A DNA stretch of 34,324 nt, taken from IMG/VR virus record IMGVR_UViG_3300017923_000007, positions 1 through 34,324 of that record; one strand, given 5' to 3'. A program made the translations under genes and the position numbers. Shown piece by piece: positions 1-34,324 of this stretch. Within the stretch, counting starts at the first letter, position 1. Every line of letters starts with the position of its first letter. Under the pieces are notes generated by a model. It made no database searches, had not been told where the DNA came from, and saw only the letters and a program-made list of their open reading frames with translations. This DNA comes from a virus.

Positions 1-8
1 ATCATATA

Positions 9-30
9 CCCCCCGTAAATTTGAACCAGT
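9..30 (+). repeat. iteron of origin region B (first copy after the window join)
   Basis: A C-rich run followed by GTAAATTTGAACCAGT. The same element occurs as a cluster at 20765-20886 and, in variant form with ATTTACGAACC, at 34277-34320. Read across the end-to-start join, this copy continues the cluster at the end of the window. Being upstream of a replication initiator gene fits an initiator-binding iteron; binding itself is inferred. Confidence 0.75.
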
Positions 31-112
31 CTATTTTATTAGTTTTAACCCCTATTTTCTCCTTTTTAAATTGTCAGAAAATTTTTACTTTGACTTTTTT
101 TTAAAAAAACCC

Positions 113-231: not shown

Positions 232-321
232 ATTATTAACGATAGAAAGTAGGATATATTTTTTTAAATTCCTGCTTGATAAATATCACGAACAGTTAAT
301 TACTGGAAGGAGGGATTGATA

Positions 322-1605: not shown

Positions 1606-2403
1606 GTGAAAAAACAAAAACAAAAAGAAAAAGTTTGTCCTATTTGTGGTGGAGACGGTTATGTAAGAGGAAAAACTGGAATGATAAGGTGTCAGTGTGT
1701 CAAAGATGAGCTATATAAAAAGCTCGGGAAATTCTGTAATATGTCTGTGGATCAGTATGAGACAGAAGTTAATTTTGAAAATTATAATATTAAAACAAGC
1801 CAGGGTACAGAATTGAGTTATAAACAATTAATGAATTATATTCTCTTGCACTATAAGGAAAAAAAGAAATTGGAGTTATATTTTCAGGGCCCGAGAGGGG
1901 TTGGAAAAACCCTTTTTGCCAACAAGTTAATTGCAAAAATTGTAAAAATGGTTGAAAGGAAAAAGAATTTTGAAGATGGATATAGCATCAAAAAACAGGC
2001 TCACATTATCAGTAATGTCAACCTCCTGTCTCTCTATGGAAAATTTAATGATCAAGAAAAGCAACGACAGGTTGAAGAAATTAGAAAAAAAAGAATATTA
2101 ATTATTGATGGATTCCTTCAAAATATTGATATGCAAAACTTCAAGAAAACATTTATGAATGAATTAATCAAGGAAAGATCTTCTGATAACTATATAACTA
2201 TCCTTATCTCTCAAAATTCTATTATAGAATCTATCAATGAAATTAATGATAAGAAAAAAAGACTTCAAGATGTTCTTTCTGAATATCAAATTGTGAAATT
2301 CCGTGGAAACCTATATGATAGTTATCGGGGAAAAAATAAGAAAGATACCCTTGATAATGTCGATCTAAATAAACTGGAAGGAGTGGATGTTAGTGAAATA
2401 TAG
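1606..2403 (+). CDS. DnaC/DnaI-like helicase loader, AAA+ ATPase
   Basis: The GTG start directly abuts the stop of the initiator gene and uses AAAGGAAAGTGG as ribosome site. The 265-residue protein begins with a small zinc-binding motif (Cys11, Cys14, Cys29, Cys31), as in DnaI and phage loaders. Walker A is GPRGVGKT at 95-102 and Walker B is ILIIDGF at 164-170; residues beyond that fit the sensor region of an AAA+ fold. DnaC/DnaI proteins bind the replicative helicase and load it on single-stranded DNA melted by the initiator. The next gene encodes the partner helicase and overlaps this one by 17 bases, so the three genes form one operon. Confidence 0.85.
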   Translation: MKKQKQKEKVCPICGGDGYVRGKTGMIRCQCVKDELYKKLGKFCNMSVDQYETEVNFENYNIKTSQGTELSYKQLMNYILLHYKEKKKLELYFQGPRGVGKTLFANKLIAKIVKMVERKKNFEDGYSIKKQAHIISNVNLLSLYGKFNDQEKQRQVEEIRKKRILIIDGFLQNIDMQNFKKTFMNELIKERSSDNYITILISQNSIIESINEINDKKKRLQDVLSEYQIVKFRGNLYDSYRGKNKKDTLDNVDLNKLEGVDVSEI

Positions 2404-4069
2404 TGATATCGGTCAGGTAATTGTTGGTAGGTTGATTAACCCTCTTAAGGAAGATGACCAAGAAAAAATAATGAAGTATGTTAGAAAAGATGACTTTCAG
2501 GTGTTCTCTCAAAAGTTTATATTTGAGTATGCTCGGGAGAAATATGAAGAAAGAGGATATATTCTTGAAGCTGAAGAACTGGCTATACAGCCCGATTTAG
2601 CTGTCAGATTACTAAATACTTCAGATAGGCTTAAGAAACAGTATGGAAAGAAAAAGGGTTTCAAAACTAAAGAAATTAGAGATATTTTTGAAGAACCAAT
2701 GGGTCCAGAAAACTCGAGTAAAGAAGCTCTGATGCAGTCAGCAGAAAACCTGCTTAATAATGAAGTAAATTACGATAAGACATATAAACATGACATTATG
2801 TACTATATTGAGAAATTAAAGGAAATAAAAAAAATAAATAAGATTAAAAATACACTCAATACTGCTTCTCAAAAACTAAATGAATTGATTGATAATGGAG
2901 AAGAATATTCAGTTGAGAAGGTTTTTCCGAATGGAATTAAATCTATCCTTCCACAAAGCAATATTGATAATAAGAGTTTTTGGGATATAGTTGAAGAAAT
3001 AAGGGATCAAGCCAGAAATGGTGGAATTGTACCCTTCTATTTTGACCAATACGATGAAAGATTTCTTAATGGTGGTTTTAGAGAGGGTCAATTAGGGATA
3101 ACTGGAGCTAATACAGGAGTCGGAAAAACCACCTTTGGAACAAATGTATTTTATCGACAAATCATAAATGGAAAAAATGTATTCTATTTGACGCTTGAAG
3201 AAAGTAGAAAAGAATTAATGCAACGATTAGCAGTTATTCACTCAAATTATAGTGAAAAATTTGAAAATCTTAAAGTTACCAAACAAGAATGGTCTGATAT
3301 GGGTCTCAACTCTGATAGAATGAACAAAATAAATGAGATACTTCAAGACATGGAACAATATGGTTTTGAGAAGAAAATTATTGATATGAGTGGGGATAAA
3401 TATTATAATAGTGTTATGACACAACTAATGAATTTGTCGATTAGAAAAAGGCAGGGAGAAAAAATAGCAATGGTTCATATTGACCATATTCACAATATGA
3501 AAAAAAGAGGTTCTGGTGGAAAGGCTGAAAAAACTGGAGATATTGCAGATGGAATGATGTCTTTTGCAAAAGAGTCTGGAATAGTTATTCACTTATTAGC
3601 TCAACTTAACCCGTTAAAAGATGATGAAAAACCAAAAAAAGAACAAATTAGATGGTCTGCTGATTTCGCCCAAAATGGTTATATTGTGAACCTATTATAC
3701 AGAAAAGATTATGGACTAACCAAGGAAGAAAGAGAAGAACAGGGATTATTGAATGAAAAAACTATTGAGATCATAGTGGATAAGAATAGAATTTCTGGAG
3801 AAATGGGTTCAATAGAGCTATATATCGACTGGAAATATGACTATATGGCTACTATCGGGACAAAAGAAGAAGAACTATTACAGCAGAATATGTTGGAGCA
3901 GGTAGAGGATTTAGAAAAAAGAAAGAAAAAGATTGAAGAAGAAGGAACTACTGTTCAAACTTTTGCTGAAGCTCGGGCTGAAAAAAGAATGAAAGAAAAA
4001 CAAGAAGAAAGTCCAATGATTTCACTTGATGAATTAACTCAAGAAATGGAAGAAGAGGTAGATGTATAG
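2387..4069 (+). CDS. dnaB: DnaB-like replicative DNA helicase
   Basis: The protein is about 560 residues from ATG 2387, or 558 from GTG 2393, which has the better spacing (9 bases) from GGAAGGAG. The N-terminal 180 residues are helical, as in the DnaB collar. The RecA-like C-terminal domain has Walker A GANTGVGKT (240-248), Walker B MVHIDHIHN with Asp366, the motif-3 glutamine in LLAQLNP (Gln406), and a KNR motif (466-468) matching the nucleotide-sensing loop KNRxGxxG of DnaB. The last 60 residues are a charged coiled-coil tail. It unwinds the fork and would be loaded by the preceding protein. There is no linked primase, so the host enzyme is presumably used. Confidence 0.88.
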   Translation: MLVKYSDIGQVIVGRLINPLKEDDQEKIMKYVRKDDFQVFSQKFIFEYAREKYEERGYILEAEELAIQPDLAVRLLNTSDRLKKQYGKKKGFKTKEIRDIFEEPMGPENSSKEALMQSAENLLNNEVNYDKTYKHDIMYYIEKLKEIKKINKIKNTLNTASQKLNELIDNGEEYSVEKVFPNGIKSILPQSNIDNKSFWDIVEEIRDQARNGGIVPFYFDQYDERFLNGGFREGQLGITGANTGVGKTTFGTNVFYRQIINGKNVFYLTLEESRKELMQRLAVIHSNYSEKFENLKVTKQEWSDMGLNSDRMNKINEILQDMEQYGFEKKIIDMSGDKYYNSVMTQLMNLSIRKRQGEKIAMVHIDHIHNMKKRGSGGKAEKTGDIADGMMSFAKESGIVIHLLAQLNPLKDDEKPKKEQIRWSADFAQNGYIVNLLYRKDYGLTKEEREEQGLLNEKTIEIIVDKNRISGEMGSIELYIDWKYDYMATIGTKEEELLQQNMLEQVEDLEKRKKKIEEEGTTVQTFAEARAEKRMKEKQEESPMISLDELTQEMEEEVDV

Positions 4070-4266: not shown

Positions 4267-5205
4267 CTACATATTAATATAGTTTCCTCTTCCAAAGTTC
4301 ATACTTTCAAGAGGATTTTTTCTCTTATTCCTTTTGCTTTTCCCAAACTGCTGCACATATTCCCTTGTTACATCCATAGAAGTATGGTCTAATAATCTTG
4401 TAAGGGTATAAGCATCTCCTCCATTTTCGATCCATATTGAAGCAAATGTTCTCCTAAAAGCGTGAATACTGGTCTTGTTAACACCACGAGCCTTGTTATA
4501 CCTTTCAATAGCTGAACGAATACCTGAAGCTGTTATTTGCCCTCCGTGTTCAGTACAAAAAAGAAAATCTTCAGGATCTCCTCTTCTTATTTCTATATAT
4601 CTCTTCAAAACTTTTCTTAATTTTGGGTAAAGGTCAACCTGATATTCTCTTTTTGCCTTAAAATTATATAGGTTAATTATTTCTCTTTGAAAATTAATAT
4701 CATTATTTTTCACATTAATTAAAGTTTTCTTCCTTACTCCTGTTGCTAAAAAGAAGTTGATCATAACCCAATTTCTATATTCTGAAAATCTAACCTTTTT
4801 TATTTTTGGTTTTTTAAGTAATTTTTCCAACTCGTCTTTATTATAAATTTCTTTCATTTTATTCTGACTATCTGGAAGCATTTTAATCTTAAATTCTGGA
4901 ATCTGAATACTGAAGTGTTCCTGCATCCAATAAATAAAAACTCTTATTGCTCTTAATGTTGTATTAGCACTTGTGGTATTATAATCCCGATTACTATCTA
5001 ACCACAACAAAAACTGTTGAATAGTCTTCTTATTAATTTCATCAGTATTCTTTATTTTTAGACTATTTTGACAAAAATTTAAAAAAAGTCTATTATTATA
5101 TCTATAGTATTTAATTGTCGCTTCTGACTTCTTTTCTGACTTCTTCTCCAACATAAAATCTTCTAAAGCTTCTTTTATACTTTTTTCTTTAACATTTGAA
5201 ATCAT
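4267..5205 (-). CDS. int: tyrosine recombinase (integrase)
   Basis: I start at ATG 5205, 9 bases after AAAAGGGG; an upstream in-frame TTG at 5229 lacks a ribosome site. The 312-residue protein has an N-terminal SAM-like core-binding domain (about 8-100) and a C-terminal catalytic domain with the full set: Arg158 in ATGVRKK, a hairpin lysine near FKAKRE, HAFRR with His248 and Arg251, His274 in LLDHTS, and the nucleophile Tyr283 in REYVQQF. It is XerD-sized and I see no separate N-terminal arm-binding domain. It lies beside an intact tRNA-Arg gene flanked by repeats, the expected attachment locus. The probable transcript starts at the consensus promoter 5613-5641 and reads through the tRNA. Confidence 0.92.
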   Translation of the reverse strand: MISNVKEKSIKEALEDFMLEKKSEKKSEATIKYYRYNNRLFLNFCQNSLKIKNTDEINKKTIQQFLLWLDSNRDYNTTSANTTLRAIRVFIYWMQEHFSIQIPEFKIKMLPDSQNKMKEIYNKDELEKLLKKPKIKKVRFSEYRNWVMINFFLATGVRKKTLINVKNNDINFQREIINLYNFKAKREYQVDLYPKLRKVLKRYIEIRRGDPEDFLFCTEHGGQITASGIRSAIERYNKARGVNKTSIHAFRRTFASIWIENGGDAYTLTRLLDHTSMDVTREYVQQFGKSKRNKRKNPLESMNFGRGNYINM

Positions 5206-5294
5206 CTCAACAACCCCTTTTCTAATCAAATTCTAATCTAATTTTAATCTTTTTTACCTCTTTTTCCTCCAAAAATACATCCTTAAACAAAAAT

Positions 5295-5338
5295 AGAGCG
5301 TATGATCTCCTTTATTTTTCAAAAAGATCATACACTCT
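5295..5338. repeat. inverted repeat arm, left side of probable attP
   Basis: AGAGCGTATGATC (5295-5307) and its inverse GATCATACACTCT (5326-5338) match at 12 of 13 positions and are separated by 18 bases. The same 13-mer recurs on the other side of the tRNA at 5586-5598. They lie between the integrase start and the tRNA, where arm-type recombinase sites or an operator would be expected. Confidence 0.6.
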
Positions 5339-5380
5339 TAATTATAAATTTATTTAATTTTAGTATTGGATCTCCTGGTC

Positions 5381-5400
5381 TTTCCCCCCGATTTTTCGGT
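5381..5400 (+). repeat. direct repeat left of tRNA-Arg (copy 1)
   Basis: TTTCCCCCCGATTTTTCGGT recurs as TTTTCCCCTGTTTTTTCGGT at 5539-5558, one on each side of the tRNA gene. Together with the AGAGTGTATGATC elements this makes a two-class repeat array around the tRNA, resembling a phage attachment site. Confidence 0.5.
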
Positions 5401-5425
5401 CTTTATAGGGCTTCAATTTAAAAAA

Positions 5426-5502
<77 letters not shown>

Positions 5503-5538
5503 CCGTTCAAGTTCTTATTGTGGGGGGCTTTTCTTGTG

Positions 5539-5602
5539 TTTTCCCCTGTTTTTTCGGTGTGGCTGAGTGTATGACTTTTGATTAGAGAGTGTATGATCAT
5601 AC
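5539..5602. repeat. repeat cluster, right side of probable attP
   Basis: Contains the second TTTTCGGT-type direct repeat (5539-5558), GAGTGTATGAC (5565-5575), AGAGTGTATGATC (5586-5598) and the perfect 12-bp palindrome GTATGATCATAC (5591-5602). The palindrome lies at about +4 to +15 of the promoter at 5613-5641, so it could be an operator instead of, or as well as, a recombination arm. Confidence 0.6.
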
Positions 5603-5650: not shown

Positions 5651-5791
5651 TTATTTGTTTTCTTTCCTCTTTTTGGTTTGAATGAAAAAGTATAAAACTG
5701 CTATATATGATATTACTATATTAATTCCTGTCCAGGTCAATAATTCAAGATTGAAAAGATTATTAATAGATGCCCAAATTTCGCTTAACAT
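5651..5791 (-). CDS. 46-residue single-span membrane peptide
   Basis: ATG 5791 follows AAAGGATGA by about 7 bases. The peptide has an amphipathic start, one hydrophobic segment (about residues 21-37, INIVISYIAVLYFFI) and a strongly basic tail (TKKRKENK). I do not recognise a family. Small hydrophobic peptides with basic tails are seen among type I toxins, holin-like proteins and membrane regulators. The gene has its own perfect consensus promoter (5857-5885), a long perfect hairpin in its 5' leader, and stops 10 bases before the -35 of the next promoter. That much dedicated control suggests a real, regulated product. Function unknown. Confidence 0.6.
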   Translation of the reverse strand: MLSEIWASINNLFNLELLTWTGINIVISYIAVLYFFIQTKKRKENK

Positions 5792-9412: not shown

Positions 9413-11671
9413 TTATAAAACATAACCAATAACAGTTGTGCTATCCTCTGAACCTCTTACAGAATTATGAGTAACTTCTGTTACATATAGCTTCACTTGT
9501 TGCTGATATACAGGGTGATATACATTTATTATTTTTCCTGGCTGTATTCTAACATCAGAAAGTAATTTTACTTTTGTGATTTTTGATTGGATATTATTGT
9601 AAAACAATTCTTCCTCTGCTTTTGCCTGAACTTCTTCAAAATTTTGTAATAATGGATTATCTATTTCTTTTGTTATTTCTCCATATTTTGAGATAAGATT
9701 TGTATTTTCTGCTATTCCTTCAATCTGTCCTGGTGGTACTTCTGCAACTGGCTTTCCGTATATTTTTACAAAATATTGAGCATCCATAGAAAAATGCCAA
9801 CTGTTCTTGAATTTAATTTCAGTATAATAAGGATTAATTGCAACTATTTTATATTCATCTCGGTCTAAAATACCCCAAGTTATAACATCGTAAAAATCAA
9901 ACCAATCACTATCATTGTCTGCTACTTCAACTTCCACCCTAACATCAACTGCTCTTGTTTTTTGATCCTGTGAGTAATAAAATTTTTGACTTTGATCTTC
10001 TTCCAATATTACCTCTTTTTCAACTAACAATTCTTCCTTCTGCACCACCTGTCGTGGTTCTTCTACATTTCTTCCAGTAACCTTCACTCTTGTTGCTATA
10101 TCGCTATCATCCCACTCTGCATCATACCATTCGATATTGTCTGCATTACTGTAAGAATAATCTGCTGAAAGTGAAGAAAGGTTTCTTTTTGAAATTAATT
10201 CTAATTTTCCTTCATTATTAATGTTAATTTTCTTTCCCATTGTATCTGCAAGCATATTAACCATATCTATTATTTTTTCTCCAACAAATTGTATCTTTCC
10301 AACTGTTGGTGGAGGTTCTTCCATTGCTATAATATAAGGAAGTCCATCGTTGAAGCTTGTTTTAATCCCCCAGATATTTGAAAAATCAAAACCTACATAA
10401 CTGTTTTCTTCTTTCATTTCTGTTTCTGATAGTATTGTCATATTATCCTGATAATTATTCCCTGAAAGGTCTTCTCCAATCAGAAAGATATTTTGTCCAA
10501 AAGTATAATTATTTTCATAAGCTGAATCTTCTGGATATCCAACATATATATTGTTGAGAGTAAGGTCAGTTGTATTTTCTCCAATTTTTGTTGTCCAAAA
10601 ATATAATACTTCGTCAAAATTAATATTTTGTGCATATATATTTTCAATATTGATATTATTGATATAGTCCCTACTAAACGGATTAATACTTCCAAAAAGA
10701 AGACCACTTGAGGAGTAAAAAATATCATCAACTCCTGCAATGGGTCCACTTATATATATATCTTTCCAATATACATTAGAAATATCGACATGACTTGAAG
10801 TTAGCTCTTTTCCAAAAGTTGAAAAATGACAACCTCCAGAAAAAGTGTCTATATTTTCCATCGATATATTCTTGAAAACTACACTGTCAATATTAACATT
10901 GTCTCCAATTTCATTACAGAAAATATTCATATTCCCTTCATCAGATTTCATATTGATATCTGACATCATAACATTACTGATATTAACATGACTGCCTGCA
11001 AATTGTGTATCAAATACTCCCTTAATTGTTGAAGCAAATATACCCCTATAGTAATAATCAAGATAACCATTAATATTACTAATCGTGAAATTATTAATAT
11101 TGGTGTCAATTTTCCCTTCAAATCCTGAATAAGAAGAAATAGTATCTGTAATTGCAAATTTTGAAAGTGGATCTCCATCAGTTGTTATATTCTTAATTTT
11201 GATATTGTCAAGTTGACTTCCCTGAATAGTATTGAGAAGTCTAATATCCTCATATTTGTTTTTTCCTTCTATATATACATTTTGAAATGTTATATTTTCT
11301 AATATTCTACCTTCTACTCTTTGAAAGAAATTAACATCATAATCAATCGAAATCATTTGAAAATCTGAAAAAGTTATATTTTTGATTTCTGGCTGATAAC
11401 TTTCTGTTATAATTTCTTCCCAGTCATGAGGATATTCTAATTCTAACTCCCAAAAAAGACCATAACTCCCGTTTCCTTCAATTATGAAATTTGAAATTGT
11501 ATATCCGTTTCCATCAAAACTACCGTTGAAGTTATAACCAGTCCATTTTTGACCACCTAAATCTATATCTGAAACTAATTTATAATACGCTTCAGGATTG
11601 TTTTGAATATCAATCAAATCCTGTCCAGTCTCAATAAGATATGGATCAGTCTGTGTTCCTGTTCCTAACAT
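9413..11671 (-). CDS. tail hub C-terminal half fused to an N-terminal beta-helix adhesin-like domain
   Basis: 752 residues, with AAAGGTGGTGA before ATG 11671. Residues about 1-65 (GTGTQTDPYLIETGQDL, YKLVSDIDLGG, FNGSFDGNGYTISNFII) match the lead-in of GLUG/right-handed beta-helix proteins; repeated I/N-rich strands continue to about residue 430, ending with PPPTVG. From about residue 455 (GKIQFVGEKIIDMVNMLADTMG) it resembles the C-terminal part of siphovirus tail-associated hub proteins, with beta-rich segments (EYKIVAINPYYTEIKF, KIYGKPVAE, KIINVYHPVYQQQ). The N-terminal part of such a hub is encoded separately in the next gene upstream. The fold assignment is by pattern only. Confidence 0.6.
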   Translation of the reverse strand: MLGTGTQTDPYLIETGQDLIDIQNNPEAYYKLVSDIDLGGQKWTGYNFNGSFDGNGYTISNFIIEGNGSYGLFWELELEYPHDWEEIITESYQPEIKNITFSDFQMISIDYDVNFFQRVEGRILENITFQNVYIEGKNKYEDIRLLNTIQGSQLDNIKIKNITTDGDPLSKFAITDTISSYSGFEGKIDTNINNFTISNINGYLDYYYRGIFASTIKGVFDTQFAGSHVNISNVMMSDINMKSDEGNMNIFCNEIGDNVNIDSVVFKNISMENIDTFSGGCHFSTFGKELTSSHVDISNVYWKDIYISGPIAGVDDIFYSSSGLLFGSINPFSRDYINNINIENIYAQNINFDEVLYFWTTKIGENTTDLTLNNIYVGYPEDSAYENNYTFGQNIFLIGEDLSGNNYQDNMTILSETEMKEENSYVGFDFSNIWGIKTSFNDGLPYIIAMEEPPPTVGKIQFVGEKIIDMVNMLADTMGKKININNEGKLELISKRNLSSLSADYSYSNADNIEWYDAEWDDSDIATRVKVTGRNVEEPRQVVQKEELLVEKEVILEEDQSQKFYYSQDQKTRAVDVRVEVEVADNDSDWFDFYDVITWGILDRDEYKIVAINPYYTEIKFKNSWHFSMDAQYFVKIYGKPVAEVPPGQIEGIAENTNLISKYGEITKEIDNPLLQNFEEVQAKAEEELFYNNIQSKITKVKLLSDVRIQPGKIINVYHPVYQQQVKLYVTEVTHNSVRGSEDSTTVIGYVL

Positions 11672-11719
11672 TTGTTCACCACCTTTTTTAAAACAAAACC
11701 TCTTTTAAAATTAATAAAA

Positions 11720-12205
11720 TTAAAAATCTAAATCTTCATTAGTCAATCTCGTATAAGTCAACAATATATCTCTTATAATTTCAGTTGTTCTTTCATTTTT
11801 ATATTGTTTACTGGTCCTCACTTTTGACAACAATTCTTTCATTCCATCAAGTGCTGTTACTGATATTGTGGGAGCATTTCCTCTTTGATATTTTGTCTTA
11901 TAAGCATTAGTAATATAATATGTCCCAACAGGTAGTATTTGATTATTAATTCCTTTTTCGACAATAACTTTGTTGTTTAATTCCAGTAAATCGTTATTTT
12001 CTGAATTAGGGTTCATGATATCAAATTCTCCATTTTCATTAACTATCTGAAATTCCAGTCTGTTAGATTTATTATTTTCAAATTGTTTTATTTTTAAATT
12101 CTGTACCTTATCTGATATATCAACAATTTCTCCTGTTGGTTTTTCTATTTTAACAACATTATTGATTAACCTGATTGGTTTCTCTATTTCGTCTTTATAA
12201 GCCAA
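11720..12205 (-). CDS. tail hub N-terminal half
   Basis: 161 residues starting at TTG 12205, 8 bases after AGGGGG. The sequence (IEKPTGEIVDISDKVQNLKIKQFENNKSNRLEFQIVN, LPVGTYYITNAYKTKY, ISVTALDGMKELLSK) is typical of the first domain of phage tail hub/Tal proteins. It ends at EDLDF, the point where such proteins normally continue into the second domain. Here the continuation is in the next gene, after 48 non-coding bases and a new beta-helix domain. Both halves have their own good ribosome sites, so this looks like a natural split rather than a sequencing error. Confidence 0.6.
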   Translation of the reverse strand: MAYKDEIEKPIRLINNVVKIEKPTGEIVDISDKVQNLKIKQFENNKSNRLEFQIVNENGEFDIMNPNSENNDLLELNNKVIVEKGINNQILPVGTYYITNAYKTKYQRGNAPTISVTALDGMKELLSKVRTSKQYKNERTTEIIRDILLTYTRLTNEDLDF

Positions 12206-18718: not shown

Positions 18719-18771
18719 TTTATTTCCTCCTTATAAATTTTTAATTTAAAACTTCTTTTAAATAATTACTA

Positions 18772-19134
18772 TTAATATAGATTTTGAACCATTGAGAGAT
18801 TAATTTCTATATCTTCTGCTCCACCTGAATTATCTCCAGAAGAATATAATTCAACGGATTTCCCAACATAAATATCTCCCTCATTAGCCAATCTATCATT
18901 AGCAGCGTCATAATATACCTTGTCTCCATCAACCATAGAAGTCCCAGCAACTATTGAAACGGGAACCTCTACAATACTATGACTGATATCAAAAACTACT
19001 TCTTCACCAGCTTTTGCATTATAAGGTACAATCCCACCCCAACCATTATTAGGGTTAAAATAAAGTTCTCCCTTAACAACATCTTTATCAACAACAATTG
19101 TAATACTTTTTGCATCACTAACTTTTCTTGCCAT
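18772..19134 (-). CDS. capsid decoration (cement) protein
   Basis: 120 residues with AAAGGAGGGAAATTAAA before the ATG. The core, VEVPVSIVAGTSMVDGDKVYYDAANDRL followed by GDIYVGKSVEL, matches the DUF2190/capsid cement pattern in which a GDxVYxD turn is followed by a glycine-rich strand. Such trimeric proteins bind the outside of the mature capsid and stabilise it. The gene sits between scaffold and major capsid genes, the usual position. Confidence 0.75.
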   Translation of the reverse strand: MARKVSDAKSITIVVDKDVVKGELYFNPNNGWGGIVPYNAKAGEEVVFDISHSIVEVPVSIVAGTSMVDGDKVYYDAANDRLANEGDIYVGKSVELYSSGDNSGGAEDIEINLSMVQNLY

Positions 19135-19164: not shown

Positions 19165-19662
19165 TTACTCTTTTTCAGCAGTAAACCTATATTCTTTCTT
19201 ATCCTTCTTTTGTTTTTTAACTGGTGTTTCAACCATCATTCTTCCAACCATAGATTTAATTTCTTCATCAGAAACAAACTTATCAACTTTTTCTTCAATT
19301 TCTTCATAGCTCTCATTTTCTACATCAAAACTAACCATTTTCATAGTTAATTTTTTCAAACTTTCATCTTCTGCTTTTTCTGCAATCATTTTTTCTACTT
19401 TTTCTTTTTTCTCTTCTAATTCTTTTTCTGCCTGAACTTCTTTCATTCGTGTTGCAAGAGATAATACTTCGTTTACTTCCTCAAAAACTCTGTCTTTTCC
19501 AGCTTCTTCTTCAACGCCTAATAGGTCTCTTAATTTTGCAAGCAATTCATTAGCTGGTTCTTCAGCTTTTGTATTAAGTTTTTGATTAATTTTTTCTAAT
19601 TCAATTTCTTCTTCTTCAAAAGAATCAATCATTTTTTTCAGCTCTTCCTTCTTAATTTTCAT
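19165..19662 (-). CDS. nested in-frame scaffolding protein (internal start within the protease gene)
   Basis: Inside the protease/scaffold gene, AAGGAGGG (about 19679-19672) precedes an in-frame ATG at 19662, which is codon 189. Initiation there would give a separate scaffold of 165 residues beginning MKIKKEELKKMIDSFEEEE. This mirrors the lambda C/Nu3 arrangement, in which the protease gene contains the scaffold gene in the same frame. The position of the site exactly at the domain boundary supports real use; expression is inferred. Confidence 0.65.
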   Translation of the reverse strand: MKIKKEELKKMIDSFEEEEIELEKINQKLNTKAEEPANELLAKLRDLLGVEEEAGKDRVFEEVNEVLSLATRMKEVQAEKELEEKKEKVEKMIAEKAEDESLKKLTMKMVSFDVENESYEEIEEKVDKFVSDEEIKSMVGRMMVETPVKKQKKDKKEYRFTAEKE

Positions 19663-20226
19663 AACAGTTTTTCCCTCCTTATTTTTCATTTTTGTCAAGA
19701 CCAACCCAGTATCCATTCCTTGATGATCAAGTGGTGTCCAGTCAATAGAGGATAATTCAATTTCCTGAACTAATGGTTTTTGATTCGGTCTTTCTTCAGC
19801 AACAAGCCACCCAAGAATTGAAACCTGTTTTGTTCTACCAGTTCTAATCCATCGCTTTAAATTATCCTGTGAAGCATCAATAACCCCTCTTACATATACT
19901 CTACTTTCTTCTTCCTTATATACAGCCCCAACCCAAGCAGTTGCTATATCAGGAAATTTGGTAGCTAATTCTTCATCATTTCTATGTCCAAGATAACCAT
20001 TAACAGTATTATTATTAATTTGTTTGACCATTGATTCCATAGCTTCATCAGAAAACTCATATTCATCTTCATAATCTTCTTTTCCGATATATACTATAAC
20101 CTGTAATGGATCATCATCCTGTTCTAACATTTCTTCAAGATTAACAGCTTCACTTACTGGTATATCCTCTAATTGAATATCACTGTTTTCACCAACCATT
20201 TTTGAAACTAATTTAATTTTATCCAT
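19165..20226 (-). CDS. prohead protease fused to scaffolding domain
   Basis: 353 residues. The N-terminal 165 residues form a protease-like domain: VNGYLGHR with His81 and RTKQVSILGW with Ser136 fit the His/Ser pair of phage prohead proteases of the Mu-I/assemblin type, and SSIDWTPLDHQG follows. From about residue 185 the protein changes to a charged, helical Lys/Glu-rich scaffold with a basic C-terminus (KKQKKDKKEYRF), as in scaffolds that bind capsid protein. An internal ribosome site and ATG at 19662 allow the scaffold to be made alone (next entry). ATG 20226 has GGGGTGA upstream. Confidence 0.75.
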   Translation of the reverse strand: MDKIKLVSKMVGENSDIQLEDIPVSEAVNLEEMLEQDDDPLQVIVYIGKEDYEDEYEFSDEAMESMVKQINNNTVNGYLGHRNDEELATKFPDIATAWVGAVYKEEESRVYVRGVIDASQDNLKRWIRTGRTKQVSILGWLVAEERPNQKPLVQEIELSSIDWTPLDHQGMDTGLVLTKMKNKEGKTVMKIKKEELKKMIDSFEEEEIELEKINQKLNTKAEEPANELLAKLRDLLGVEEEAGKDRVFEEVNEVLSLATRMKEVQAEKELEEKKEKVEKMIAEKAEDESLKKLTMKMVSFDVENESYEEIEEKVDKFVSDEEIKSMVGRMMVETPVKKQKKDKKEYRFTAEKE

Positions 20227-20261: not shown

Positions 20262-20293
20262 TTAAAAACCTCCCTGTTGATTAGGCAGGGAGG
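20262..20293 (-). terminator. terminator-like hairpin between late promoter and protease gene
   Basis: CCTCCCTG (20269-20276) and CAGGGAGG (20286-20293) are perfect complements with a 9-base loop; on the minus strand TTTTTAATTT follows. It lies about 40 bases downstream of the predicted start of the late promoter at 20340-20382, so structural gene transcription would have to pass it. Confidence 0.8.
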
Positions 20294-20315
20294 AACAAAA
20301 AAGAAAGGTGTGTTG

Positions 20316-20333
20316 TGATATATAATTATCACT
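20316..20333 (-). promoter_or_regulatory. inverted repeat at the late promoter start point
   Basis: GTGATATATAATTATCAC is an inverted repeat of GTGATA and TATCAC. It begins right at the predicted transcription start of the late promoter, so it could be an operator or the first hairpin of the leader. Confidence 0.5.
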
Positions 20334-20339
20334 ATAACT

Positions 20340-20382
20340 ATTATACCATTTATCAATTATAGTTCTGTTTCATTCTTGCAAG
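20340..20382 (-). promoter_or_regulatory. late promoter module, copy 1 (palindrome CTTGCAAG plus extended -10)
   Basis: On the minus strand CTTGCAAGAATGAAACAG is followed by 13 variable bases and then AAATGGTATAAT, an extended -10. The same 43-base arrangement with identical spacing occurs at 30219-30261. The 8-bp palindrome sits near -45 to -38, and no good -35 hexamer lies at 17 bases, as expected for an activator-dependent promoter. It faces the head and tail genes. Confidence 0.7.
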
Positions 20383-20444
20383 AGATTTTGGAAAACCCAA
20401 GTTTTTTTATATATTTTTAGTAATTTATCATATTTAAAAATAAG

Positions 20445-20886
20445 ACCTGTATATAAACTAAAAACCTGCCCTTGATTTTCCATTCTATCCTGATCATTTA
20501 TTTTATTAATTATTAATAGCTGTTTATTTTTAGATGCCAGTTTTTAACTTATCAACGGGTTTGATTACTTGCATATTTTAATTTACAATATTTAATAAAC
20601 AATTATGATCTTGAACTTGATTACTTTTTTGACTTACAGATAGAAAAACTATAATTGGTAACCTACTTTTCTAAAATCTGCATCTCTATATCATCTATAT
20701 AGATCTATACATCTATAGTAGAATCACTCTCAACCCACCCATAGCAAGGTCTTATCGGGATTTCACCCCCCGTAAATTTGAACCAAACCCCTACCATCTA
20801 TGAACCAGTACCCCTGGTAAATTTGAACCAGTACCCCTGGTAAATACGAACCAGTCTATTTCAACCCCCCGTAAATTTGAACCAGT
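20445..20886. repeat. origin-like region A: duplicated block plus five iterons
   Basis: Non-coding. 20445-20506 matches 33918-33978; 20541-20670 matches 34051-34180 at 129 of 130 positions; 20681-20725 resembles 34191-34236. Downstream are five iteron-like copies ending in GAACCAGT or GAACCAAA (about 20765, 20788, 20810, 20832 and 20865), the first four in phase at about 22 bases. TTGACT plus TATAAT at 20629-20655 (15-base gap) is a possible + strand promoter. The last iteron ends at the stop of the next gene. Confidence 0.8.
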
Positions 20887-20888
20887 CT

Positions 20889-21905
20889 CTATAACTCATA
20901 TTCTCCATTCATTATTCTCTGATATACATTCTGATACCAATCTTCCAATTCAGGTTGACTACCTGGATTATTTCTCCACTCTTTCACTCTATTAGTGAAC
21001 TGGTCAAGAGTCTCATTGTGGACTGGTACTTGATGACACATACATTGTGGGTGGGGTATAGCAGGTTCTTCTCCCTGCTTATATATTTTCCCAGCCATCG
21101 GATCACATACATCGGGTTCAGGGTGTGCATCTGATAGTAGCCACTTAATACCATGATATGAAGGAGAAACCTGTCCTGAAGCATAAACCCCTTCCATAAA
21201 ACTCTGTGTATATTCTGTTCTTGCTAATCTCAAAGCTCTATAGTCAAGATTTTTTGGAAAGTTTTTTTGTGCAGCAAGCTCGGGTGAAATATATTGTTTT
21301 CCACCCTTAATATATTGGTCAAGATCTCTTGCTATATCAACAGCACTCCTACCCTCTGCCTGCGATAACCTAATAAAATCAACAAGGTTTTCTCCTGTAT
21401 GATTTCTTATTTTCCATATTCTATCTGAAATATTTAATCCATCGCTCCATGTCCTTGCATAAAGGGCTTCTACAGCCTTTCTGTTAATTAACCTATTAAC
21501 AGGTCTAACATTAAACCCACCTTCAATAAGGTATAATTCTACTGGTTCTGCCCCGTGTTTTGCTGATTTTCCTACATATTCTTCCAGTAATTTTAAATAT
21601 TTGTCGTCAAACTCATTTCGTAAAGTATATTCAACCTGTCTTTGCAGGTCCTTTAATTCTAATGAAGAAAGAGTGTCTTTTCCGTTATTAATATATTGAA
21701 GGTTTTTGATTCTTTTCTGTAAATCATAAACCATATTTGCATAAAGGTCTCCAATTTTTCGGTTCATTTCTAACTTTGAACCAAGAAAATGCCTTCTTGC
21801 ATCAATAACTGATTTCAGATAGGGATTTTTCTTTTGAATACCAACTATTTCTCCAGTTGTTTTTGCATTTGCTATTTCTTCGTGAACCTGCTGTAATGTT
21901 GCCAT
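20889..21905 (-). CDS. minor head protein, SPP1 gp7 / Mu gpF family
   Basis: 338 residues, ATG 21905 four bases after the portal stop. The C-terminal region YRALRLARTEYTQSF, KWLLSDAHPEPDVCDPMAGKIY and PHPQCMCH carries the conserved arginine/tyrosine helix and the Cys/His cluster (Cys near 266 and 288-292) that define the phage head morphogenesis (SPP1 gp7-like) domain. These proteins associate with the portal and enter the capsid in small numbers. The gene normally precedes the protease/scaffold gene directly, but here a 620-bp origin-like region separates them. Confidence 0.88.
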   Translation of the reverse strand: MATLQQVHEEIANAKTTGEIVGIQKKNPYLKSVIDARRHFLGSKLEMNRKIGDLYANMVYDLQKRIKNLQYINNGKDTLSSLELKDLQRQVEYTLRNEFDDKYLKLLEEYVGKSAKHGAEPVELYLIEGGFNVRPVNRLINRKAVEALYARTWSDGLNISDRIWKIRNHTGENLVDFIRLSQAEGRSAVDIARDLDQYIKGGKQYISPELAAQKNFPKNLDYRALRLARTEYTQSFMEGVYASGQVSPSYHGIKWLLSDAHPEPDVCDPMAGKIYKQGEEPAIPHPQCMCHQVPVHNETLDQFTNRVKEWRNNPGSQPELEDWYQNVYQRIMNGEYEL

Positions 21906-25164: not shown

Positions 25165-25590
25165 TTAATCATTCCCATCACTTCCCAAAATAATATCCTC
25201 TATACTTCTTTTTGTTTCAACCTTTGCATCCAACTCAACTTTATTTTTCTTACCAAACTTCTCTGGATATTTCTTTTCTAATAACCAGGCTGAAGCCCTC
25301 CAATCTCCATCATCTCCTGCTTTTTTAATATTACTAACATTATTGATTTCTCCCATAGCTTCTGCTTTTTGAATATCCTGCCAGAATTTCAAATATAATT
25401 TATCTTTCTTTTTTAATTTGCTCTTTTTAATTTTTCCATTTTCAATCTTTTCTTCTATTTCCTGACCTCTATCTTTCCAATTATAATAAGTTGGTCTGGT
25501 TATTCCTTTCATTTGACAGACTGTTACTACATAGTGTCCTTCACTAACCAATCTACATACATCTTCAATAGCTTCTTCTGTTAGTTTCAT
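25165..25590 (-). CDS. terS: terminase small subunit
   Basis: 141 residues; ATG 25590 follows AGGGGGATAAGAAA. The N-terminal part is a helix-turn-helix (about 5-40: AIEDVCRLVSEGHYVVTVCQMKGITRPTYYNWKD), a helical oligomerisation region follows (KLYLKFWQDIQKAEAMGE), and the C-terminus (WRASAWLLEKKYPEKFGKK) is a motif of phage small terminases. It recognises the packaging site and hands DNA to the large subunit, whose gene is 29 bases downstream. Confidence 0.88.
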   Translation of the reverse strand: MKLTEEAIEDVCRLVSEGHYVVTVCQMKGITRPTYYNWKDRGQEIEEKIENGKIKKSKLKKKDKLYLKFWQDIQKAEAMGEINNVSNIKKAGDDGDWRASAWLLEKKYPEKFGKKNKVELDAKVETKRSIEDIILGSDGND

Positions 25591-25989: not shown

Positions 25990-27126
25990 CTATAAAAATT
26001 TAATCTTTATTTTTTTACTTTCAATATTAATTTTTACTTTTAACCAGTTTTCTAAAGATTTAATTTTATTAAACCAGTTATAGTAATTAAATATTGCAGA
26101 ATCATTAATTTTTAATTTAAGATAGTTCTTTTCAATGTTTATAACAATATCAATATTTTTTAAAACATATTCAAAATTAAATTCATTAAAAAATTTTACT
26201 GGCTCAATAGTATCTAATATTCCTAATCGAAATAAAAGAGGATTTTTATCTAATGATATTCTATCTTTTTGGTCTCTTATTAGCTCGTCAAGTTCATACT
26301 TTTTATATAATTTTTTATTATTGTTTGAAAACCAAATATTATGAGAAACTATACTGTCGGAAACATAAGCATAAAGATCAATATGATTTTTTCTCCAAAT
26401 TTTTTGTCCCAAACCATTATTTTCGTCTAACTCAAAATAATTATCATTATTATATTTATTTTTATTATATTTATTATATTTATTTTTATAATTCTTTTTT
26501 AATTGGTCAAAAAAAACAACTCCAGCATTTATACCGTGATCAATACAATTATGCTCTTTAAACCTAAATTTAAAATAATTTTTTACCGTTTCCTTACTGT
26601 AGGTTGTTTTAAAATTTTTAAAATTTTTATTATTTTTATAATTACTTTTACTTTTCAATTTATGATTAAATAATAAATTTTCACATGAAATTTTATTATT
26701 ATAAATTAGATCTTTAAAATATTTTTTATTATCACAGTTATTATATTTTTTTAGAGTTTTATTATTCTTTTCTTCAATCCAATACATATCATGAAATAAA
26801 CAACTCAAAAACCATACAAGTTTATAGTTATAATTATGTTCTTTGGGTCTTATATGGTCTAAAAATTGATTAATTTTATTACTAAACAATTTTTCAGTTA
26901 AAACTCCTAAAAAATACATTGAAACAGTATGCTTATTTTTTCCCTTTTCCTTTAATTCTTTCTTCTTGTCAGGTAAAACACTATTTTTTGATGAAAGTTC
27001 AAAATATCTTTCAATAAAATTCCAAGATTTATTTGGGTCTTTAATTGGATTAAATCTATTTTTATCTTTATAATACAAAACATTATCCTTTTCTCCTAAT
27101 GCTAAAAACTCTTTATATAAATTCAT
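25990..27126 (-). CDS. HD-domain-like protein, probable accessory (cargo) gene
   Basis: 378 residues, very rich in Asn, Lys and Tyr and visibly more AT-rich than its neighbours. Spaced motifs fit a metal-binding HD fold: His66 (KHTVSMYF), His112-Asp113 (CLFHDMYW), His197 (CIDHGINAG), His262 (VSHNIW) and Asp305 (ILDTIEPVKFF), the order H..HD..H..H..D. HD proteins are usually phosphohydrolases or nucleotidases, some used in anti-phage defence. The family is not recognised with certainty. ATG 27126 overlaps the stop of the preceding membrane-protein gene (TAATG), so the two act as a pair. Low GC suggests recent acquisition. Confidence 0.5.
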   Translation of the reverse strand: MNLYKEFLALGEKDNVLYYKDKNRFNPIKDPNKSWNFIERYFELSSKNSVLPDKKKELKEKGKNKHTVSMYFLGVLTEKLFSNKINQFLDHIRPKEHNYNYKLVWFLSCLFHDMYWIEEKNNKTLKKYNNCDNKKYFKDLIYNNKISCENLLFNHKLKSKSNYKNNKNFKNFKTTYSKETVKNYFKFRFKEHNCIDHGINAGVVFFDQLKKNYKNKYNKYNKNKYNNDNYFELDENNGLGQKIWRKNHIDLYAYVSDSIVSHNIWFSNNNKKLYKKYELDELIRDQKDRISLDKNPLLFRLGILDTIEPVKFFNEFNFEYVLKNIDIVINIEKNYLKLKINDSAIFNYYNWFNKIKSLENWLKVKINIESKKIKIKFL

Positions 27127-27575
27127 TAATTGCCACTCCAGTGATGTATATCAATTAGCTTCCAATTATTTTTATTCTTTTCAAAATCCCATTCTCCGTC
27201 TTCTCTACCTATATATTCAACATCAATTTCCCAACCATCCATTATACGGTTTCTCCCAAAATCATCTACAAAATCTTCTAAAACATAGTTAACCAAAATT
27301 TGAACCCTATAAACATGTTTGCGAAATGGAAGAACATTTTTTCTGACAATATTTACTGTTCTTAATTTAACATCATCTTCTTTTTCTAAATCTTCCCAAG
27401 CATAATTCCAAGCAGCACCAAAAGCTTCTTCTTCATGTTCTCTTGTTATTTCATTAGCATAATTTTTTGGTTTATTTTCACGATTTTCAAAACTATTATT
27501 TATACCAATAAATAAAAAAATTAGAATAATAGAGAATATAGTCATTCTTAACATAGTTTTAAAGTTATAATTCAT
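27126..27575 (-). CDS. membrane-anchored protein paired with the HD-domain protein
   Basis: 149 residues: basic start, one hydrophobic segment (about 11-25, MTIFSIILIFLFIGI) and a soluble outer domain of about 120 residues (AFGAAWNYAWEDLEKEDDVKLRTV, HVYRVQILVNYVLEDFVDDFG, WKLIDIHHWSGN) that looks like a small alpha/beta domain. A lipoprotein cysteine is absent, so the hydrophobic segment is an anchor or signal peptide. The stop overlaps the start of the HD gene. Function unknown; AGAGG lies 11 bases upstream of the ATG. Confidence 0.55.
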   Translation of the reverse strand: MNYNFKTMLRMTIFSIILIFLFIGINNSFENRENKPKNYANEITREHEEEAFGAAWNYAWEDLEKEDDVKLRTVNIVRKNVLPFRKHVYRVQILVNYVLEDFVDDFGRNRIMDGWEIDVEYIGREDGEWDFEKNKNNWKLIDIHHWSGN

Positions 27576-28445: not shown

Positions 28446-29000
28446 TTAAATTATTTCATCAATTAATCCATATTCTAATGCTTCTTCAGCAGTCATATAT
28501 TTGTCTCTCTTAAAATCCTTTTCTATTTTTTCTACTGGTTGTCCTGTATTTTTTGAATATATTTTAGTTATTCTTTCATTTAATTTAACAGCTTGTTCAA
28601 CAGCAACTTCTATATCTGTTATCTTTTTAGTATAATAACCTATACTTAATTCATGTTCCATTATTGTTGTATTTGGATAAGCATATCTTGTTCCAGTTCC
28701 TCCTGTTAATATTAATGAACCTGCTGACATTGCTTTTCCAGTTGCAATAGTATTAACCCGACAATTCATATTTTGTATTGTATCATATATACTTAAGGCA
28801 GAATATACACTTCCACCAAAAGAAGAAATATATAAGTTAATATCTTCTTCTGGATTTTCTTTATCTAACTTAATCAATTTTTTAATAATTCTTTCTGAAC
28901 TCTCTTCATTTACCCCTTCAAAAAGGTAAATATCTCTTTCTTTTGAAGCTTCCTCTTTATACAACTCATCAATCAACTTTTTAATTTTTTGTTTTTCCAT
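28446..29000 (-). CDS. clpP: ClpP-type serine protease
   Basis: 184 residues with the ClpP fold and catalytic triad: Ser92 in GKAMSAGSLIL, His116 in IMEHELS and Asp166 in FKRDKYMTAEEALEYGLID. It also has INLYISSFGGSVYSALSIYD, the strand and glycine-rich loop that bind substrate. In phages ClpP-like proteins usually serve as prohead proteases beside the capsid gene, but here it is about 9 kb from the head genes, and the head locus already has a protease. It may work with a host ClpX/ClpA partner, or replace host ClpP. It overlaps the upstream gene by one base. No ATPase partner gene is seen. Confidence 0.88.
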   Translation of the reverse strand: MEKQKIKKLIDELYKEEASKERDIYLFEGVNEESSERIIKKLIKLDKENPEEDINLYISSFGGSVYSALSIYDTIQNMNCRVNTIATGKAMSAGSLILTGGTGTRYAYPNTTIMEHELSIGYYTKKITDIEVAVEQAVKLNERITKIYSKNTGQPVEKIEKDFKRDKYMTAEEALEYGLIDEII

Positions 29001-29806: not shown

Positions 29807-29893
29807 TGGTGGAAGGGGAAGGATTCGAACCTTCGTACCACTCGGGAACAGGTTTACAGCCTGCCGTTTTTAACCAAACTCAACCACCCTTCC
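29807..29893 (-). tRNA. tRNA-Tyr (anticodon GTA)
   Basis: 87 bases with a long variable arm. Acceptor GGAAGGG pairs fully with CCCTTCC, then A and encoded CCA. The anticodon loop CTGTAAA gives GTA, and the T arm is GGTTCGAATCC. First gene transcribed last in a three-tRNA cluster behind a late promoter. Confidence 0.95.
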
Positions 29894-29897
29894 ATAT

Positions 29898-29989
29898 TGG
29901 CAGAAGGAGAGGGATTTGAACCCCCGATACCCGTAAAGGTATAATAGTTTTCAAGACTACCTTCATAAACCAGACTCGAACATCCTTCT
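29898..29989 (-). tRNA. tRNA-Ser (anticodon TGA)
   Basis: 92 bases with a long variable arm. Acceptor AGAAGGA pairs fully with TCCTTCT, then G and encoded CCA. Anticodon stem GTAGT/ACTAT encloses CTTGAAA, anticodon TGA, for UCA/UCN codons. The T arm is GGGTTCAAATCCC. Confidence 0.95.
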
Positions 29990-29999
29990 GTGTTATAAA

Positions 30000-30075
30000 T
30001 GGTGGGAAGAGATAGAATTGAACTATCAACACCTGGAGCTTCAATCCAGTGCTCTACCAATTGAGCTATCTTCCC
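30000..30075 (-). tRNA. tRNA-Phe (anticodon GAA), unusual G at position 37
   Basis: 76 bases. Acceptor GGGAAGA pairs fully with TCTTCCC, then A and encoded CCA. Anticodon stem CTGGA/TCCAG encloses TTGAAGC, anticodon GAA. Bacterial tRNA-Phe normally has A at position 37, the site of a hypermodified base; here it is G. The D and T arms look normal (AGCTCAATTGGTAGAGC, AGTTCAATTCT). Confidence 0.88.
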
Positions 30076-30086
30076 ATATTAAAATA

Positions 30087-30201
30087 GGGTAGGATTTAAT
30101 CCGTTTATTTATATAATAATAGGAGGTGATTTCAGTTAATGAAGCAATTATAAAGACCTACCCAGGCAGCCAGAAGAATTGCACTTCCCGACCTCTTTAT
30201 A
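30087..30201 (-). other. non-coding leader between late promoter copy 2 and the tRNA cluster
   Basis: Read on the minus strand, TATAAAGA (30201-30194) pairs perfectly with TCTTTATA (30156-30149), enclosing GAAG-TGCAATT-CTTC. GGGTAGG (30163-30157) can alternatively pair with CCTACCC (30093-30087), a second structure that would compete or form a pseudoknot. ATCACCTCCT (30130-30121) equals the conserved 16S rRNA 3' tail. No open frame with a ribosome site on the minus strand. Confidence 0.5.
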
Positions 30202-30218
30202 TAACTTTCATTATATTA

Positions 30219-30261
30219 ATTATACCATTTCTTGAAGCTAATCCTGTTTCATTCTTGCAAG
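30219..30261 (-). promoter_or_regulatory. late promoter module, copy 2
   Basis: Same architecture and spacing as 20340-20382: CTTGCAAGAATGAAACAG, 13 variable bases, then AAATGGTATAAT (minus strand). It points at the tRNA cluster and, beyond it, the ClpP, HD and terminase genes. Confidence 0.7.
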
Positions 30262-30328
30262 AATTTTACACTTTTTCTTGAAATTCCTTCCGAAATTCTT
30301 TTTTCAGTCTATCAATTTCTTTCCATTT

Positions 30329-31509: not shown

Positions 31510-32019
31510 TTAATTTTCCATTTCTTCATACTTATTTTTCGAAAATTGAACAAAATTTTCATCAAAATCAAGACTTAATAATCCAACATAGAGGGCAAAC
31601 CTCTTAATCGCTTTTTCTTTCAGTCGATAATATTTTGTTGTTCTGCTCAAATATAAGTGATTAGCTACCATTCCATCATTAACTACATTCCCGTCTTCAT
31701 ATTTAAATTTGATTAGTTTTTTTTCTTCTTCTGGTAGTCTTTCAATTGCTTGTTCAATATTATTAACTATATATTGTATATGTCTTATATCCACTTCCTG
31801 CATAATAGCTGTAACAGCGTGTTCTGCTGTACTATCTGCTATACCATATTCCTGAACTTTCTCTCTTGTATAATCAACTCCTGAAAGCTCTGAAGCCCAG
31901 GCTCTTTTTTTCTTGATTAGGTTAATTTTGTTTTTTAGGTCAAATCTTGCTTGAAGAAGACCAATTGCTTGTTCCTTGATACTGTCCGTTAATTCTAACT
32001 GATCAATGTTATTTTTCAA
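31510..32019 (-). CDS. ArpU/RinA-like late transcription regulator
   Basis: I start at TTG 32019, about 6 bases after GAAGGTG, overlapping the RuvC gene by 11 bases; a longer frame opens at 32067. About 169 residues, helical, with ADSTAEHAVTAIMQEVD, IVNNIEQAIERLPEEEKKLIKFKY and a sigma-like helix-turn-helix NHLYLSRTTKYYRLKEKAIKRFA. This is the pattern of ArpU/RinA-type phage regulators, which activate late genes. It is the best candidate for the activator of the two conserved late promoter modules, an inference. Confidence 0.7.
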   Translation of the reverse strand: MKNNIDQLELTDSIKEQAIGLLQARFDLKNKINLIKKKRAWASELSGVDYTREKVQEYGIADSTAEHAVTAIMQEVDIRHIQYIVNNIEQAIERLPEEEKKLIKFKYEDGNVVNDGMVANHLYLSRTTKYYRLKEKAIKRFALYVGLLSLDFDENFVQFSKNKYEEMEN

Positions 32020-32509
32020 GGTTAACACCTTCTTCTTTTGCCAACTGTTCTGTAATCTGATTTGCATTATCCAGTAGATAAGTTATTCCGTGTCCTATTG
32101 CATCTGTTTCGTGGTCTGTCATATTGCTTGTATCTATATCATATTTTTCCTGAAGGACTTTTTCTATTTCTTCTTTTTTTGCTCTTCCATTTCCAGTAAT
32201 AACTTTTTTCATATGCCCTGGAGAATACTTGCAGAACTTGGTTATTCCTCTATCTATACCAGTCTTGATAATTGTCCCTGAAACCTCTCTAACCTTCCCT
32301 CTTCCAAACACATTTTCATATACTATAATTTCTATATCCATTTCTTCTATGGTTTGACCAATCCAACCCGTAACCTCTGCAATTGCTTCATAGAATGGAA
32401 GTTTTCCAGTTGTAATAGTTGCAGTATCTATAATCTTTCCAGTCGCAATTTCAATAACTGCGATCCCAACATTCCGATAACCCGTATCAATAGCCAACAT
32501 ATTTTTCAC
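32009..32509 (-). CDS. ruvC: RuvC-like Holliday junction resolvase
   Basis: I start at GTG 32509, 8 bases after AAAGGTGG; the frame opens at 32521. 166 residues with RNase H-fold active-site acids: Asp8 in LAIDTGYRN, Glu65 in IIVYENVFGRG and Asp132/Asp136 in TDHETDAIGHG, the RuvC order D-E-D-D, plus VITGNGRAKKEEI matching the conserved helix before the last acids. It would resolve branched recombination or replication intermediates before packaging. It is the only recombination nuclease seen in the window. Confidence 0.85.
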   Translation of the reverse strand: MKNMLAIDTGYRNVGIAVIEIATGKIIDTATITTGKLPFYEAIAEVTGWIGQTIEEMDIEIIVYENVFGRGKVREVSGTIIKTGIDRGITKFCKYSPGHMKKVITGNGRAKKEEIEKVLQEKYDIDTSNMTDHETDAIGHGITYLLDNANQITEQLAKEEGVNLEK

Positions 32510-32510
32510 T

Positions 32511-32600
32511 TTACCTACCACCTTTCAAATTTTGAAGGGGTGGTGGTATAAATACTATTTTCTCTGTCTGGTTTAATTTCGATTTTAAAACCCCTTTCAT
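32511..32600 (-). CDS. possible 29-residue peptide ahead of RuvC
   Basis: ATG 32600 opens 29 codons whose stop is one base before the RuvC start and whose last codons contain the RuvC ribosome site. It lies 10 bases after the stop of the 112-residue gene. No ribosome site precedes it, so it would need coupling. Low confidence. Confidence 0.25.
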   Translation of the reverse strand: MKGVLKSKLNQTEKIVFIPPPLQNLKGGR

Positions 32601-33600: not shown

Positions 33601-33917
33601 TTTTTTACTTTTTTCTTAAAGTTTAAATTTTCTGATAATTTAGAGCCAATCCCACTCTTTCTTTTTTACAATTCCCTACATTATATATAGGGATTTTATA
33701 TCCTGTTATTTATAATTTTCTAAAAATTTGAAAACTATAAAATAAAAGAGATCGGCTATTTTTAATTTTAAATACTTTAATATGGTAAAGCGTGAAATTA
33801 TAAAAGTTAAACCCCCTGGTCAATGTAAAATAAATATGAATGAGTATTCATTCGTTGACGGAAACCCAACTGGTCTTTTCTCTTTAATTTTAATACTTTT
33901 TTTATTAAAAAATAAAA
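33601..33917. other. non-coding upstream region of the early operon
   Basis: No open frame with a ribosome site. Contains CCCTA-CATTATATA-TAGGG near 33682, a small inverted repeat, and the first of two TGAATGAGTATTCA palindromes (33836-33851). Confidence 0.4.
33836..33851. promoter_or_regulatory. palindromic operator candidate, copy 1
   Basis: ATGAAT-GAGT-ATTCAT, a 16-base inverted repeat with 6-bp arms. A 14-base core TGAAT-GASTATTCA recurs at 34021-34034. Located between the early promoters and the origin-like block B. Confidence 0.5.
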
Positions 33918-34320
33918 ACCTGTATATAAACTAAAAACCTGCCCTTGATTTTCTATTCTGTCCTGATCATTTATTTTAATTCCTTTATATATAATAAGGA
34001 AGAGTTTTTTTATTCAAAAGTGAATGACTATTCATAAATTAAATTCCAGGTTTTTAACTTATCAACGGGTTTGATTACTTGCATATTTTAATTTACAATA
34101 TTTAATAAACAATTATGACCTTGAACTTGATTACTTTTTTGACTTACAGATAGAAAAACTATAATTGGTAACCTACTTTTTTTAAGCCAGCATCTCTATA
34201 TTTATCTATATAAGTCTATACATCTATAGTGGAATCGGGTTCCTGCTTACAGCCACCTGGGATTATCGCAATTTGACCCCCCCCATTTACGAACCAAACC
34301 CCCCCCATTTACGAACCAGT
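33918..34320. repeat. origin-like region B: duplicated block plus iterons, adjoining the replication operon across the window join
   Basis: Contains the second copy of the 60-base (33918-33978), 130-base (34051-34180) and 45-base (34191-34236) blocks found at 20445-20725, in the same order and orientation. A possible + strand promoter lies at 34139-34165 (TTGACT with TATAAT). Two iteron variants (C-run, ATTTACGAACC) end at about 34299 and 34320. Beyond the join, the iteron at 9-30 and the replication genes follow. Confidence 0.8.
34021..34034. promoter_or_regulatory. palindromic operator candidate, copy 2
   Basis: TGAAT-GACT-ATTCA, the second copy of the 14-base palindrome; it is absent from the otherwise similar region A, so it belongs to the control of this end rather than to the replicated block. 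Confidence 0.5.
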
Positions 34321-34324
34321 ACCC

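Follow-up and report, generated by a model that had tools for sequence, protein, structure and literature searches.

Matching origin-like regions in the replication module and the head operon turn over together in two related phages, in a layout resembling that of SPP1

Results

The phage DNA analysed here, a window of 34,324 nt (positions 1 to 34,324 of IMG/VR record IMGVR_UViG_3300017923_000007, classed linear), carries two origin-like regions with common iterons, one at its replication module and one within its head operon. A related phage carries a pair at the same two places, and the iterons of both its sites have changed together, in a layout like that of the two origins of SPP1. We consider it highly likely that the pair is functional and is bound by one phage protein, and from the arrangement we infer initiator binding, origin activity, fork direction, fork arrest and a replication switch.

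The original prediction, that a 130-base block at 20541-20670 matches 34051-34180 at 129 positions, is exact, the sole mismatch lying at 20609 (T/C), and alignment found again the further matching blocks and the iterons that it had described, in the same orientation and 13,510 bp apart (Table 1). The local alignment of the two copies scores 334, against a mean of 37.7 (sd 6.1) for shuffled sequences, and the TCTATATA..TCTA..CTATAGT motif is present in all four origin copies of the window phage and its relative. The head-site cassette is non-coding, since no reading frame in 20370-20889 stays open for more than 57 codons. It is bounded by the gp7 stop codon on one side and by a promoter/terminator segment common with the relative on the other, and it does separate the gp7-like gene from the protease/scaffold gene, as had been claimed. 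The other copy had been said to adjoin the initiator gene; it adjoins the replication operon, but the RHH-like gene intervenes. Because positions 5112-5748 of the relative bridge window positions 96 and 33851, the window most likely represents a genome that is circular or circularly permuted, and to judge from the sequence a few iterons are most likely missing at its break point. Hairpins in the core fold no better than those of shuffled sequences, and GC skew, which is confounded here by gene strand, is unchanged at 20.5 kb.

Table 1. Origin-like regions, signals and genes of the window
Feature	Position	Strand	Second position	Basis or remark
Head-operon origin-like cassette (oriR-like)	20370-20889			differs from head locus of G001, flanks common
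Replication-module origin-like region (oriL-like)	33876-34324	+		runs on across contig ends into window 1-32
Outer AT-rich block	20403-20505	+	33876-33978	83%, 103 nt
Core block	20540-20691	+	34050-34201	96% over 152 nt
TCTATATA..TCTA..CTATAGT motif	20693-20725	+	34204-34236	91%, 33 nt
Head array, five iterons	20764-20886	+		consensus ACCCCNNGTAAATTTGAACCAGT; abuts gp7 stop codon
Last iteron of replication-module array	7-30	+		within window 1-32
Operator-like dyad GAATGANTRTTCAT	33838-33851		34022-34035	in G001 (L008) at 5748-5761
RHH-type (Arc-like) small protein	316-618	+		PHROG 582, E 3.5e-5
Probable initiator, 303 aa	694-1605	+		HTH matches and position; two winged-helix-like segments; 38% to that of G001
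DnaC-like helicase loader	1606-2403	+		PHROG 50, E 2e-16
DnaB-like replicative helicase	2387-4069	+		PF03796, E 5.6e-27
Tyrosine integrase	4267-5229
Protease/scaffold-position protein	19165-20226	-		PHROG 3219, E 3.5e-47
Terminator-like hairpin, on the protease-gene side of the cassette	20268-20298	-		fold z -3.2, T-rich tail
Promoter-like element	20319-20388	-		TGGTATAAT, upstream TTCTTGCAAGAA-like palindrome
gp7-like minor head / head morphogenesis protein	20889-21905	-		PHROG 1657, E 6e-68
terS	25165-25590			about 4.3 kb from head-site cassette
RuvC-like Holliday junction resolvase	32009-32521	-		PF02075, E 7e-11; PHROG 159, E 4e-15

The iteron cores of the head array lie at 20772, 20794, 20817, 20840 and 20871, with spacings of 22, 23, 23 and 31 bp, the shorter of which correspond to about two helical turns and the longest to about three. 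The replication-module array, interrupted by the contig ends, holds at least three iterons (34283, 34305 and 15). Every match listed for the main core GTAAATTTGAACCAGT that falls outside the arrays has three or more mismatches, and the iterons are confined to the two arrays in each of the two phages. The operator-like dyad stands beside the replication-module copy only, again in both phages; the two copies are therefore not equivalent, the head copy having the core and the iterons without this control element. DnaA-box-like sites are weak. An iteron pattern search of genome contigs gave two matches, both by chance and in coding genes, while in viral contigs the core pattern was not found and the TCTATATA..CTATAGT motif occurred only in both copies of the relative and in three chance matches.

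The protein that binds the iterons is most likely, as we infer from the sequence, the 303-aa product of 694-1605. Pfam places an HTH-type match at residues 77-106 (TrmB) and weakly at 167-202 of this protein, and at residues 189-220 of its counterpart in the relative; the AlphaFold model of the initiator, for which an alignment of two sequences served as input, is poor, with a mean pLDDT of 51, but has two winged-helix-like segments in its secondary structure. No known Rep family was found for it, since Pfam and NCBIfam returned generic HTH matches only and a PDB search a generic regulator. On the head side, the protein at 19165-20226 matches head maturation protease with an E of only 0.0044, and the sequence of the terminator-like hairpin is conserved in the relative.

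Searches by helicase, gp7, portal and initiator found one relative, G001 (IMGVR_UViG_3300035544_000232, 33,344 bases), so named hereafter. It has its own pair, at 5147-5550 and 18730-19134, which is 87% identical over 406 nt and 13,583 bp apart, and whose copies occupy the same junctions, beside the RHH/initiator operon and between gp7 and the protease-position gene. Its iteron is CTATCCTGTCTATATGTCCAC, with four per array and spacings of 22, 31 and 31 in both arrays; the iterons are thus wholly unlike between the phages and alike within each phage, and BLAST of either window region against G001 gave no match. In a four-way alignment of the cores (two copies from each of two phages; 197 ungapped columns), 87 columns are invariant and 65 group by genome, with none grouping by position and none crosswise. 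We attach no probability to these site patterns, because one or a few events could suffice to produce them and the sites are not independent.

The genes around the two sites show which neighbourhood the head-site copy follows. Between the window and G001, gp7 is 92%, the portal 90% and TerL 84% identical, whereas the initiator, loader and helicase are 38-39% identical and the RHH protein 57%; the head-site copy therefore tracks the replication module and not its own neighbours. Homology of the head-operon DNA runs up to the stop codon of gp7 and picks up again at about 20369, some 520 bases on. Since the flanks were kept and both copies changed together, the cassette at the head site has been exchanged for, or converted to, a form that matches the replication module. 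Such coupled turnover is what selection for a common initiator specificity would be expected to give; passive duplication followed by divergence would not predict it. From this comparison of two genomes of the group, it is very probable that the two sites function together, in the manner of the two SPP1 origins. The near-identity of the window copies had been taken to imply recent duplication, gene conversion or selection, and selection or homogenisation stands; recent duplication is not the whole story, because G001 has a diverged pair of its own at the same two places.

The pair is not a general property of the head operon. Eleven further viral contigs that share this head operon, together with the phages PM1, Youna2, BSP7 and 268TH008, showed no counterpart of their gp7-scaffold region elsewhere beyond short weak matches, which suggests that paired origins are a feature of some lineages. 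The claim that gp7 and the protease gene are normally adjacent holds in part. Among 56 loci that share this head operon, many do have the two side by side, with 19 bp between gp7 and scaffold in phiCD27-like phages, but many others have small genes inserted at this junction.

Discussion

The closest parallel is the Bacillus phage SPP1, which has two origins about 13 kb apart, each with direct repeats and an AT-rich DUE, of which oriL lies inside the initiator gene and oriR in a segment that breaks into the head genes and has transcription signals on either side (PMC6316719). Its gp38, bound at oriR, has been proposed to stall the fork and so lead to sigma replication (PMC6316719, PMC3485210). 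We examined the SPP1 group through its relatives 049ML001 and Ray17. The best repeat of the gp7-scaffold interval in 049ML001, and the sole one with E <1, pairs 4670-4716 with a stretch of the replisome organizer gene at 36020-36065. The two lie 13,888 bp apart on the circle, and the iterons are on the gp7 side with AT-rich DNA on the scaffold side, the polarity seen in the window. Ray17 likewise has common iterons at two places, one where the gp7-like gene gives way to the scaffold gene and one within the gene for the initiator. They are at about 40690-40750 and 11687-11765, which puts about 14.7 kb of the circle between them. The initiators of these two phages are 78% identical and their iterons are conserved too, whereas both differ between the window phage and G001.

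The phage described here shares with this group two distant regions with common direct repeats, one in the initiator locus and one 3' of the gp7-like gene, a spacing of about 13-15 kb between them, a candidate AT-rich element adjoining the repeats, and the order initiator, loader and DnaB in one operon, the initiator being assigned by position and HTH matches. It differs in its initiator, which shows no detectable similarity to the SPP1-type initiator (G38P in SPP1), blastp of the 049ML001 replisome organizer against P0001/P0003 having given no match. Moreover, the SPP1-type oriL lies within the initiator gene and here upstream of it, the SPP1 loader is the small G39P and here an AAA+ DnaC-like protein, SPP1 is lytic and this phage has an integrase, and the copies here have a 150-bp core in common at 96%. 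No SPP1-like recombinase or exonuclease was found among the proteins scanned. Given the lack of detectable initiator similarity, we do not claim membership of the SPP1 system, and that the pair works like SPP1 is a reading of its sequence.

We somewhat favour a two-origin system of the SPP1 type whose initiator is apparently unrelated to that of SPP1. This initiator would bind the iterons at both regions, and the loader and the DnaB-like helicase would be loaded at the AT-rich core beside them. Theta replication would begin at the copy beside the replication operon, and the fork would then move with late transcription for about 13.5 kb; in both the window and G001 the late-transcription path from this copy runs through terS, terL, portal and gp7 and then reaches the second copy iterons first. 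The fork would thus meet the iteron side of the head copy immediately 3' of gp7, where the initiator-bound site may act as a late origin, a fork barrier or both. Restart by recombination, for which a RuvC-like resolvase is encoded, could yield concatemers for packaging, as proposed for oriL and oriR of SPP1. The original prediction had also offered a packaging or lytic replication switch; a lytic replication switch is the best reading by the SPP1 parallel, but a packaging site is unlikely, since terS is about 4.3 kb off and oriR and pac are separate features on the SPP1 genome map (PMC6316719).

Several other readings were weighed. The second array could set copy number or be needed in cis, with the initiator bridging both arrays by handcuffing or looping, and be neither origin nor barrier. 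Examples of such bridging are P4 ori/crr and R6K. In satellite phage P4, the cis-acting sites ori1 and crr lie far apart and carry the same iterons for one initiator, a primase-helicase, and crr is required in cis with ori; the phage here likewise has two distant sites carrying the same iterons. R6K, P1 oriR and RK2 have iterons of the 22-bp class, an AT-rich region and an adjoining gene for a winged-helix-type initiator, as does this phage, which differs in having no Rep_3, RepA_N or TrfA family match and in carrying a complete second copy far from the first. In favour of bridging, the molecule has two arrays that match and run in the same direction, and bridging too would select for a common specificity. 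However, the head copy retains the whole core and the AT-rich block in addition to iterons, and with a tyrosine integrase present plasmid-like copy control is less needed, so that we regard this reading as doubtful, if still worth keeping in mind.

It is unlikely that the head copy serves chiefly in transcription, with bound initiator separating terS-gp7 from the protease-capsid unit and timing the latter. The promoter-like element and the terminator hairpin between the cassette and the protease gene fit such a role, as do the transcription signals that bracket the oriR segment of SPP1 (PMC6316719), but a regulator would have no need for the 150-bp core and AT-rich block, and the head copy lacks the operator dyad that stands beside its partner in the replication module. 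That the head copy is a parS-like partition site bound by the RHH protein is quite improbable. The RHH-like gene does lie beside the replication-module array, and its G001 orthologue weakly resembles ParG/PrgO; yet no ParA was found among the scanned proteins, an integrase is present, and the RHH proteins are 57% identical between the phages though the iterons are unrelated.

A mobile element, with IS21-like ends or a MITE inserted twice, is very improbable. IS21 has multiple terminal repeats, which the iterons resemble, and the loader is weakly similar to IstB. Against this origin, the initiators have no IstA/rve domain and no transposase was found; the repeats lie on one side only and in direct orientation, with no inverted ends; 72,556 plasmids have no match to either array; and the same two positions are occupied in both phages. 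An assembly artefact or a passive recent duplication is barely credible, for although the contig ends fall within the repeat, the window copies differ from each other and the G001 pair at the same junctions refutes it, unless both assemblies erred alike.

The reason for two origins in SPP1, and the question whether the second one sets off the theta-to-sigma transition, have so far depended on a single phage family and a model proposed for it. A second phage set with the same layout, a seemingly unrelated initiator and signs of joint change at both sites gives independent support for a functional second site. Tentatively, we suggest that this layout arose or persisted with an apparently unrelated initiator, that the site 3' of gp7 and the spacing of about 13.5-14.7 kb are constrained, and that the head-site origin was converted to a new specificity when a replication module was acquired. 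If this is true, some siphoviruses would use paired origins as a general modular device, and matching iterons would reveal them in sequence. The window phage and G001 also offer a natural experiment, as they combine near-identical head genes with different iteron specificities, so that sites and initiators can be compared directly.

Additional observations

In G001 (L008) an extra ORF at 10372-11160, whose product matches the C-terminal part of TerL at 47% identity over 174 residues, stands where the window has a ClpP-like protease (28446-29000). Two proteins encoded upstream of the small terminase gene, at 25990-27575 of the window, have no PHROG match and are 99% identical to those of G001; as other genes are 38-92% identical, this suggests a recent exchange. 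The promoter-like element at 20319-20388 is repeated at 30198-30267 (70 nt, 77%) and, read on the minus strand, precedes the protease-position gene in one place and a tRNA cluster in the other, so it is possibly a late promoter common to both. This cluster, at 29807-30075, comprises tRNA-Tyr, -Ser and -Phe. A tRNA-Arg at 5426-5502 lies next to the integrase gene and could mark the attachment site.
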